Part shown: positions 8,377-38,870 of the stretch, one piece after another
Position numbering within the stretch: the first letter of the stretch is position 1
Layout: the number at the start of each line of letters is the position of its first letter
Source: Marinobacter fonticola
GTDB lineage: Bacteria; Pseudomonadota; Gammaproteobacteria; Pseudomonadales; Oleiphilaceae
Direction: 5' to 3'
NCBI RefSeq assembly: GCF_008122265.1
Contig: NZ_CP043042.1
Span: 3,286,001 to 3,350,000, forward strand
Length of the DNA: 64,000 nt
The notes under the pieces: model-generated
The model's database searches: none
What the model was told of the DNA's origin: nothing
Seen by the model: the letters and a program-made list of their open reading frames with translations, nothing else
Program-made: the position numbers and the translations under genes

Positions 8377-8826
8377 ATGTCCAAGAACGACGAATGCGAT
8401 GAATTGAGACTGGAAAACCAGCTCTGCTTTGCCCTGCATTCCACGTCTCTGATGATGACCAAGGTGTATAAGCCCTTTCTCCGGGAATTGGGCCTGACTT
8501 ACCCGCAATACCTGGCCATGCTGGTTCTATGGGAATCTAACGGACTTACCGTAGGCGAAATGAGTCAACGCCTGTTGACCGATCCGGGATCCCTCACTCC
8601 ACTGCTAAAACGTCTGGAAGCCGAAGGCTTAATCAAACGCACCCGCCGCCCCACAGACGAGCGTGTTGTCGAGTTGCGACTGACCACTGATGGCCAGCAG
8701 CTACGCGAAAAAGCACGCGCAGTACCGAGTTGTATCGCGGACGCCAGCGATCGGAGCATCGAACGTCTGATGGCTCTGAAAGAGGAACTGGTGGCTCTTC
8801 GCAATAACCTGCAGAGCGCCCTTTAA
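8377..8826 (+). CDS. ohrR: Organic hydroperoxide-responsive MarR-family repressor OhrR
   Basis: Winged-helix repressor of 149 residues that releases DNA when an N-terminal cysteine is oxidised by organic peroxides. The reactive cysteine is Cys17 in the family motif NQLCFALHS; further cysteines (Cys7 and one in AVPSCIAD) might form a disulfide as in 2-Cys OhrR. The helix-turn-helix with LTYPQYLAMLVLWE, LTVGEMSQRL and the wing RRPTDERVVELRLT is typical. The ATG at 8377 was chosen because GGGGAG lies 6-7 nt upstream and the protein then has normal length. Its target ohr follows in the same direction 292 bp later, with its own presumed promoter between them. Confidence 0.93.
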   Translation: MSKNDECDELRLENQLCFALHSTSLMMTKVYKPFLRELGLTYPQYLAMLVLWESNGLTVGEMSQRLLTDPGSLTPLLKRLEAEGLIKRTRRPTDERVVELRLTTDGQQLREKARAVPSCIADASDRSIERLMALKEELVALRNNLQSAL

Positions 8827-10637: not shown

Positions 10638-10655
10638 TCGATGCTAACCGCGCGT

Positions 10656-10921
10656 AGTGTGCCGTGCGGTTAATTCGCTGATCTACTGAGCCCCTGAGAG
10701 CTTTGAGAGCAAGGCGCGGTGGCGAAGGTTTGGTGGTTCCAAATCGAGCCAGCGCAACGCGGCTATCAAAGCTCTCAGGGGCTCCCGAAGGGCGCGCCGC
10801 TGACGACGCTGGGCCGTCGTTTCCAAACCTTAACGGGGAACCACCCCGCCTGCGGCTTGGCGCCTTGTCCAGCGCCGTCAGCGACGCGCAGTAGATCAGC
10901 GAATTAACCGCACGGCACACT
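10656..10921. mobile_element. Two-hairpin palindromic element, copy 1 (266 bp, non-autonomous)
   Basis: Non-coding element bounded by 33-bp perfect inverted repeats (10656-10688 and 10889-10921, outer end AGTGTGCCGTGCGG). Inside are two hairpins in tandem. Stem A is 10688-10706 with 10766-10784, a perfect 19 bp. Stem B is 10792-10812 with 10869-10889, 19 of 21 paired. They are separated by CCGAAGG (10785-10791). Loop A holds GCAAGGCGC, TGGTGGTTCC and GCAACG; loop B holds GGAACCACC and GGCGCCTTG, the complements of the first two. The trinucleotide CGT flanks both ends and might be a target duplication. No transposase is encoded. It lies between a solute-binding gene and the convergent DUF6160-like gene. 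Confidence 0.85.
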
Positions 10922-31425: not shown

Positions 31426-31693
31426 TAGTGCACTGTTTGGTTAATTCGCTGACTTACTGCGAGCTTCTGAAGGCTTTGGGCAAGGCGCTGGTCTGCAGGT
31501 ATGGTGATTCCATGTCAAAGAGCAGCAACGCAGATCCAAAGCCTTCAGAAGCTCGCCCGAAGGGAAACCCTGAGAATCTGGCTAGCGGCGTTGCGGCGAC
31601 TCGGTGTGGAACCACCGCACCCTCGCCACCGCGCCTTGCTATCCAGATTCTCAGGGTCTCATTAAGTCAGCGAATTAACCAAACAGTGCACTA
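31426..31693. mobile_element. Two-hairpin palindromic element, copy 2 (268 bp, non-autonomous)
   Basis: Same architecture as the element at 10656. Terminal inverted repeats of 31 bp (outer end TAGTGCACTGTTTGG, inner part GTTAATTCGCTGA shared with copy 1). Stem A: 31459-31479 with 31536-31556, 21 bp perfect. Spacer CCGAAGG at 31557-31563. Stem B: 31564-31585 with about 31639-31660, core 15 bp perfect (ACCCTGAGAATCTGG), two mismatches in the extension. Loop A has GCAAGGCGC and AGCAACGC; loop B has GCGTTGC, GGAACCACC and GCGCCTTGC. The stem sequences differ from copy 1. A 99-codon frame runs through it but is an accident of the repeat. Confidence 0.85.
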
Positions 31694-38604: not shown

Positions 38605-38870
38605 GGAACCTCTGATTAAGTCTATTGGCGATTCTGCAATCCTTGAGGGCCTTTCTGGCAAGGCGCGAATCGCCGGGAAGGGTGGTTCCCTTGCCAAGAT
38701 TTGCAACGAAGACTAGGAAGGCCCTCAAGGTTTGCCCGAAGGGGCTTGTCCTGAAAGCCGGAAGCCGCGTTGCGGCTTCTTGAAAGGCAACCAGCCTTCC
38801 TGCAAAGCCGCGCCTTGATTCCGGCTTTCAGGGCGAGCCAGAATCGCCAATAGACTTAATCAGAGGTTCC
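38605..38870. mobile_element. Two-hairpin palindromic element, copy 3 (266 bp, different ends)
   Basis: Same plan as the elements at 10656 and 31426, but with unrelated 32-bp perfect terminal repeats (38605-38636 and 38839-38870, outer end GGAACCTCTGATTAAG). Stem A: 38636-38655 with 38716-38735, 18 of 20 paired. Spacer CCGAAGG at 38736-38742. Stem B: 38743-38763 with 38819-38839, 19 of 21 paired. Loop A has GCAAGGCGCG, GGTGGTTCC and GCAACG; loop B has CGTTGC, GGCAACCAGCC and GCGCCTTG. The ends resemble those of some IS5-group elements, from memory. No transposase. It lies upstream of the DASS transporter gene, ending 46 bp before its start. Confidence 0.85.

Follow-up and report, generated by a model that had tools for sequence, protein, structure and literature searches.

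Two-lobed, non-autonomous transposons with probably exchangeable ends in Marinobacter fonticola and their relatives in other proteobacteria

A bacterial MITE is usually taken for the remnant of a single transposon and is tied to one transposase. An integron attC site consists of paired boxes around extrahelical bases and is located beside an integrase array. MITEPsy1 of Pseudomonas syringae is described as trapped while transposing in vivo, with a 4-nt duplication of CTAG or YTAA (PMC3189936). The Pseudomonas fluorescens repeats R0, R2, R6, R26, R178 and R200 are given as 89-352 bp long, and the ends of R0 and R2 as those of resident IS (PMC2718517). REPs are described as 20-40 bp long with a GTAG or CGTC tag, and REPINs as miniature mobile DNA (PMC3733652, PMC3116915). 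Judged by titles and the beginnings of abstracts among the papers listed, the two-lobed family reported here is not described in the open-access literature; subscription papers lay outside this scope.

The window, i.e. the whole 64-kb stretch of DNA that was analysed, corresponds to positions 3286001-3350000 of the single 4,543,926-bp contig of Marinobacter fonticola. Three elements of 266, 268 and 266 bp, proposed in an earlier note on this DNA, were found in it as follows (window positions; bit scores refer to the lobe covariance model).

10656..10921, no strand assigned: two-lobed element 1, 266 bp, end type T1a
10656..10688, + strand: left terminal inverted repeat of element 1
10690..10784, + strand: lobe A of element 1, 80.9 bits
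10784..10792, + strand: centre CCCGAAGGG of element 1
10792..10887, - strand: lobe B of element 1 (lobe A family, inverted), 63.5 bits
10889..10921, - strand: right terminal inverted repeat of element 1
31426..31693, no strand assigned: two-lobed element 2, 268 bp, end type T1b
31426..31459, + strand: left terminal inverted repeat of element 2
31462..31555, + strand: lobe A of element 2, 66.7 bits
31556..31564, + strand: centre CCCGAAGGG of element 2
31564..31658, - strand: lobe B of element 2, 76.3 bits
31660..31693, - strand: right terminal inverted repeat of element 2
38605..38870, no strand assigned: two-lobed element 3, 266 bp, end type T2 (IS5-type GGAACCTCTGATTAA)
38605..38636, + strand: left terminal inverted repeat of element 3
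38640..38733, + strand: lobe A of element 3, 69.6 bits
38735..38743, + strand: centre CCCGAAGGG of element 3
38743..38837, - strand: lobe B of element 3, 71.5 bits
38839..38870, - strand: right terminal inverted repeat of element 3

When lobe B is reverse-complemented, it aligns with lobe A as a member of one family. Between its terminal repeats, the element thus has two homologous hairpins that face each other head to head. The internal loop of the lobe consensus has CAAGGCGC on its 5' side and GCAACGC on its 3' side. Each of the three elements is predicted to fold into a long terminal stem that closes two hairpins, with z = -13.3 for element 1 (DNA parameters) and z = -18.0 and -16.2 for elements 2 and 3 (RNA parameters); none of 200 dinucleotide shuffles was as good in any of the three cases. 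The lobe model has six matches at E<=1 in the window, which are both lobes of elements 1-3 and nothing else. As these lobes are among the 68 in the model, the matches demonstrate consistency and are not independent proof. The elements are free of genes: 266-268 bp are too short for a transposase, and the frames touching the copies are open stretches that enter the palindrome. Element 1 has TA at its left boundary (10655-10656), and TC is read at the right boundary. The ATG of a DASS-family anion symporter gene (38917) is located 46 bp downstream of element 3.

The common plan that had been proposed for the three elements holds for the two hairpins and the terminal repeats. The repeats, however, are of two types, with variants of one in elements 1 and 2 and another in element 3. 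The centre CCGAAGG, formerly taken as invariant, is replaced by CCCAAAGGG, CCCGCAGGG, CCCGTAGGG or CCCTGCGGG in other copies. Three pairs of complementary loop motifs had also been listed. Of these, GCAAGGCGC/GCGCCTTG is present in all three elements, whereas the other two pairs fail in at least one copy: element 2 has TGATTCC instead of TGGTTCC, element 3 has GCAACCA at the place expected for GGAACCA, and loop B of element 1 lacks CGTTGC. Lobe B is the inverted homologue of lobe A, and this accounts for the complementarity of the two loops. The kissing loops that had been considered are therefore unnecessary and were rejected.

The covariance model of one lobe was built from 68 lobes, i.e. 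both lobes of 34 of the 60 aligned elements described below. It gave 72 matches in the 4.54 Mb genome, possibly a lower bound, as 150 of 2543 first-look candidates were scored. Sixty-two of these lobes form 31 pairs in the order + then -, with a gap of 6-9 nt in 30 of the 31 pairs; ten lobes are unpaired. A covariance-model search, the kind of check proposed in the earlier note, thus recovered head-to-head pairs in the genome, and the many copies expected from three in 28 kb are indeed present. Searches by DNA similarity with the three elements yielded complete copies, partial ones and ends on their own. Some two-lobed copies have been reduced to one lobe by deletion (e.g. contig positions 3185918-3186013).

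Two smaller kinds of element were observed alongside. A shorter, single-lobed MITE family with ends TAGGGAGCCTCTGAAAAA is 143-159 bp long where measured (loci L226 at 214005-214153, L231, L239 and L242). The single lobe of L226 carries the same GCAAGGCGC/GCAACGC motifs as the two-lobed elements, and the lobe model scores single-lobed IS5-type-ended elements weakly (27.7-34.0 bits). Possibly, the single-lobed MITE is the monomer of the two-lobed family. A mini element of 46 bp (TAGTGTGCCGTGCGGTTAATTCGCTGATCTACTGCGCGGCACACTA, with small variants) occurs in at least four copies (L044, L045, L046 and L047; e.g. 3420120 onward). It combines the T1a left end with a right end of 10 bp and seems to be a deletion derivative that spread independently.

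One two-lobed copy is located between trpE and trpG (4126894-4127159, L002) and another between cvpA and purF (2014597-2014876, L007). The assignment of cvpA relies on the Pfam colicin V production family, matched over its cut-off; the match to the NCBIfam model is below its cut-off. Both junctions are uninterrupted in all five congeners examined (G001-G005), so that the empty sites anticipated earlier were found at both loci examined. The copies are insertions at these two sites. The copy between trpE and trpG has CTAT on both sides, and the cvpA-purF copy has no matching flank. Flanks were tabulated for 17 IS5-type-ended copies, obtained by scanning 22 loci of this genome with the end pattern (there is no row for L004, L022, L231, L240 and L245). 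An identical 4-nt flank (CTAT, TTAG, CTAA or CTAG) is present in 8 of the 17, namely in 5 of 11 two-lobed full-length copies, 3 of 3 single-lobed copies and 0 of 3 deletion derivatives. The other nine, including the cvpA-purF copy, have none. In 11 of the 17 copies, TA occupies corresponding positions in the two flanks, as it does in 20 of 51 GGG..CCC-ended elements elsewhere. The many copies, the sites empty in 5/5 congeners, the target duplications at part of the copies and the ends shared in some cases with autonomous IS support well the non-autonomous transposon envisaged in the earlier note.

AGAGG in the T2 right end (CAGAGGTTCC) is located 6 nt ahead of the trpG start codon ATG and 8 nt ahead of that of purF. 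As read from the sequence, the two copies between these co-directional genes (trpE-trpG and cvpA-purF) apparently supply a ribosome-binding sequence in place of the one from which the insertion parted the downstream gene.

The same core is found inside five end sequences in this genome: T1 (TAGTGTGCCGTGCGGTTAATTCGC and TAGTGCACTGTTTGGTTAATTCGC, two variants), T2 (GGAACCTCTGATTAAGTC), T3 (GGAGCCTCTGAATAACTC), T4 (TAGTGTCCCTTAACRAAAGTTCGTC) and T5 (TAAGTGCTCCGTCAATACG, other end TAGTGCACCGTCAATACG). T2 and T3 share GGARCCTCTGAWTAA, and T1, T4 and T5 share the outermost TAGTG. The five are therefore not all unrelated; grouped by outermost bases they give TAGTG and GGARCCTCTGA, and they may amount to two end classes.

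Two IS families share ends with elements of this kind. L434, L436, L438 and L440 start with TAGTGTCCCTTAACAAAAGTTCGTC, in which 25 nt are identical to the T4 end of L435, with one difference compared to that of L433. Beyond this shared 25-nt end, the T4 copies and the IS630-family IS of congener G005 diverge at once. Coding pieces of the latter match NCBIfam NF033545 (IS630) at profile positions 1-81, 100-201 and 252-299, each scoring under the cut-off for the whole profile, which is normal for fragments; the frame is broken in the L438 copy, and contigs end inside other copies. Viral contig L293 contains an IS of 862 bp, bounded by GGGTCTGTTGACGTTT and GGGTCTGTTGACATTT, that encodes a 249-aa IS5-family transposase (277 bits with NF033580, cut-off 110). 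The ends of this IS (GGGTCTGTTGACRTTT) are also the ends of many elements in other genomes, and the GGGTCTGTTGAC ends present there equal them. The lobe model detects no lobe at E<=0.1 in its locus. Because IS5 and IS630 are different transposase families, the core is framed by different engines. Derivation from one IS by internal deletion was rejected, as the T4 copies diverge right after the 25-nt end and no lobe was detected in the L293 locus at E<=0.1.

No intact IS with T1, T2, T3 or T5 ends was found, hence none for elements 1-3. IS5-type or T1 ends that face each other at a distance of 0.6-3 kb were seen in this genome neither among the matches listed of 127, inspected by eye, nor among all 50 of a second search. 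The genome has one PF01609 match; for IS630 nothing exceeds the cut-off, with two weak matches of 24.4 and 19.9 bits. Scans of viral contigs for T1-like and T4 ends revealed no IS. The sole plausible T1-type autonomous IS among 64 viral stretches (L333) was judged from its reading frames not to be an IS. In G005, the TA bounding a T1-type element on the right is also where an IS630-family IS starts (L438, C40:46786), which gives an element-TA-IS junction. L436 (C28:78346) has such a junction as well, with an IS630-family IS at the TA of a similar end. An IS630 element abutting a T1-type end at a shared TA is a plausible first step in the acquisition of a new end.

An exact pattern for the element middle matched at least 119 stretches in genome contigs, with match lengths mostly of 68-74. 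Genera among the matches listed are Pseudomonas, Variovorax, Acidovorax, Azoarcus, Thioalkalivibrio, Alcanivorax and others. By sequence, relatives are thus assigned to beta- and gammaproteobacteria; the pattern is also matched in records whose titles name other phyla or classes (L080, L081, L092, L118 and L146). A strict pattern occurs in 24 of 369 genomes of the same class, this one included, and the reversed control pattern in 0 of 369; judged by record titles, the class is presumably Gammaproteobacteria in the broad sense. DNA similarity to element 2 was found in 9 of 58 relatives, its own genome among the nine. From 121 pattern matches, 90 elements were defined after 28 without outer arms and 3 with impossible boundaries had been dropped; some of the 28 are at contig ends and some (e.g. 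L092 and L146, with odd spacing) may be chance matches. Although the ends differ, 75 of the 90 boundary-defined elements are 260-275 bp long.

The strict pattern is also present in one viral contig, and lobes were detected by less stringent searches in the viral contigs L292, L303 and L307. A phage origin was rejected, one Pseudomonas copy having no match in phages. Two two-lobed elements (L191 and L192) with a further type of end, GGCTCATATCTTATGCCTCC, are located on the viral-classified contig IMGVR_UViG_3300022695_000189. Another (L277) is carried by a large conjugative plasmid of Pseudomonas aeruginosa (NZ_CP017294.1, near 8597-8791), with neighbours annotated as CaiB/BaiF CoA-transferase and acyl-CoA dehydrogenase, one on each side; no usable plasmid empty site was found for this copy. 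Variants with ends near GGGAAACACTGATTAATG occur in L110 (Thioalkalivibrio), L163, L177 and L184. In L184, L100 and L174, the stretch between the centre and GCGTTGC is enlarged in lobe B.

For the analysis of pairing, 106 elements of 255-290 bp were reduced to 69 by dereplication, and 60 of these were aligned (alignment A1). Nine, mostly irregular in length, were left out (L007, L078, L086, L110, L115, L135, L169, L175 and L182). The aligned elements stem mostly from the exact pattern, which itself contains GCAACGC, CCCGAAGGG and GCGTTGC and so dictates their conservation; CAAGGCGC, GCGCCTTG, the stems and the ends lie outside the search pattern. In these 60 elements, 85.6% of the structure cells pair (53.0% in shuffles), and 94.1% in the terminal stem. 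The covariation score is 0.720, compared to 0.175 in shuffles and 0.113-0.166 with slid partners; the structure was derived from the same 60 sequences, which favours it, and the slid-partner control gauges how much. Two of the five measures are hardly distinct from shuffles: pairs changed on both sides (106 vs 102.3, reached by 5 of 500 shuffles) and further pair types (380 vs 378.5, reached by 217 of 500). On the strength of the covariation score, the compensated stems described earlier are upheld. The partner arm of the same element is the best of the 60 in 54 elements for the terminal stem, in 56 for stem A and in 51 for stem B. In the terminal stem this needs no fold, because a transposase needs like ends. 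In the lobes, by contrast, it does need explaining.

Copying from arm to arm is known for quasi-palindromes. Three groups of closely related copies (roughly 85-98% identity to the query copy) have 15 cells with matched double changes, compared to ~0.6 expected under independence, besides 74 single changes and 3 unmatched doubles; these cells count sequences and not events, and shared ancestry inflates the counts. The T2 terminal repeats have 4 matched doubles and no single change. The sequences suggest that the matched changes are mainly due to copying of one arm from the other, and selection could contribute. For the arm-copying step taken alone, the chances of being right or wrong are about equal. 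The paired changes in close copies constitute a natural system for the question whether long DNA palindromes are kept perfect by selection on the fold or by copying between arms.

Most probably, the family consists of non-autonomous transposons with exchangeable ends. The unit is a hairpin lobe of ~95 nt with an inverted second copy 6-9 nt away, enclosed by terminal inverted repeats of ~25-34 bp. The ends would belong to whatever transposase moves the copy, and transposases of IS5- and IS630-family IS would act in trans on matching ends. Ends would be exchanged while the core is kept. The arms would be kept alike mainly by one arm templating the other in replication, i.e. by template switching in the palindrome; an end sequence newly gained on one side would be carried over to the other in this way too. 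The core is homologous across end types and genera; separate origins of the core inside different ends are less likely than exchange. A conserved non-coding core found in both beta- and gammaproteobacteria, and framed by ends of two transposase families, would imply that such elements can change their mobiliser and so persist beyond any one of them. More tentatively, and with a greater chance of being wrong than right, the two-lobed core may be a portable DNA-fold module that changes engines. An end captured on one side (e.g. from an IS at an adjoining TA, as in G005) would be copied to the other side, an unrelated transposase could then act on the element (a change from IS5 to IS630 or the reverse), and each lobe would be read as a hairpin on its own strand.

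Other explanations treat the pairing differently. Some copies are 97-98% identical, as would be the case had one sequence been duplicated recently and then changed at random. Relatives in many genera have little in common apart from motifs and pairing, however; the mean column identity is 53% across the 60-element alignment, and own-arm pairing is best in most elements (54, 56 and 51 of 60 for the three stems). Recent duplication is thus refuted and has practically no probability left. The very stable fold, the covariation and the position of some copies between co-directional genes, e.g. trpE and trpG, would fit a structured RNA, regulatory or processed, with its transcript fold under selection. 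Such selection should leave more G.U than A.C on one strand. Counted as isolated mismatches between Watson-Crick pairs, the terminal stem has 17 G.U and 26 A.C, outer stem A 38 and 8, and outer stem B 9 and 34; the lobes mirror each other and their outer stems sum to near balance (47 vs 42). Because wobbles are not enriched on one strand over the two outer lobe stems together, an RNA function at the transcript level is unsupported. Furthermore, the window has no Rfam 15 match at the gathering score. Four loci that were scanned gave eight sub-threshold matches, six of them to microRNA models and two of those overlapping a two-lobed element. Copies can also be absent in congeners. The structured RNA that the earlier note had considered is accordingly very improbable.

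Read in its own orientation, each lobe gives a different picture of the same mismatches: isolated wobbles in the outer stems number 38+34 compared to 8+9 A.C, on opposite strands for the two lobes. The fold itself could be a signal in DNA. The lobes would extrude as a cruciform or as single-stranded DNA, a protein (transposase or host factor) would read the unpaired CAAGGCG/GCAACGC, and selection would keep the pairing. CAAGGCGC and GCGCCTTG are nearly invariant in the 60 diverse elements while the surrounding stems vary, and the orientation and spacing of the lobes are fixed, which argues for such a signal. The wobble excess, however, is due to few positions (mostly alignment column 55 and columns 169-171) in related sequences, a weak hint that each lobe keeps wobble there in its own orientation. 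An excess of wobbles in the inner lobes (53 and 88 G.U, 25 and 62 A.C cells) was set aside, because conserved motif positions are forced to pair there in the structure used. As arm copying alone could keep the stems paired without recognition, the signal is a possibility that is doubtful at present. If the pairing resulted from palindromic origin and arm-to-arm template switching only, the core would be functionless and the element an ordinary decayed MITE. The excess of matched doubles among close copies and the symmetric mismatches of the terminal stem are consistent with this, but it would be left unexplained why the unpaired loop motifs, the spacing and the overall length are constant in many genera although the ends differ, and a decayed MITE is considered rather unlikely.

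The two-lobed elements are a real, widespread family of non-autonomous transposons of the MITE kind, notable for probably exchangeable ends and for concerted arms. They share with MITEs the short length, the absence of a transposase gene, terminal inverted repeats, target duplications, empty sites and, in some cases, ends in common with IS. MITEPsy1 is likewise non-coding with IS5-type ends (GGAAGGTCTGAAAAAGCC / GTATCCTCTGAAAAAGCC, compared to GGARCCTCTGAWTAA in T2 and T3). It differs by its length of 100 nt and its 18-nt repeats, and the description used for comparison mentions neither a two-lobed core nor an exchange of ends (PMC3189936). The R families of P. fluorescens are described as intergenic, with many copies and some forming hairpins; compared by description, one of them (e.g. 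R200, 320 bp) could belong to the family as a species-level member (PMC2718517). REPs and REPINs are similar as short palindromic repeats in many copies, whereas the two-lobed elements are ~266 bp long and have terminal repeats and, in part of the copies, a target duplication (PMC3733652, PMC3116915). Membership in REP/REPIN was rejected, since size and ends do not fit tagged palindromes of 20-40 bp as described (PMC3733652). QMITE2, ERIC, Correia and similar bacterial MITEs resemble the present elements in being short, with terminal repeats and stable predicted folds. Compared to these MITEs as they are described, the two-lobed family stands apart by its head-to-head homologous lobes and by a core common to unrelated transposase ends (PMC10969869).
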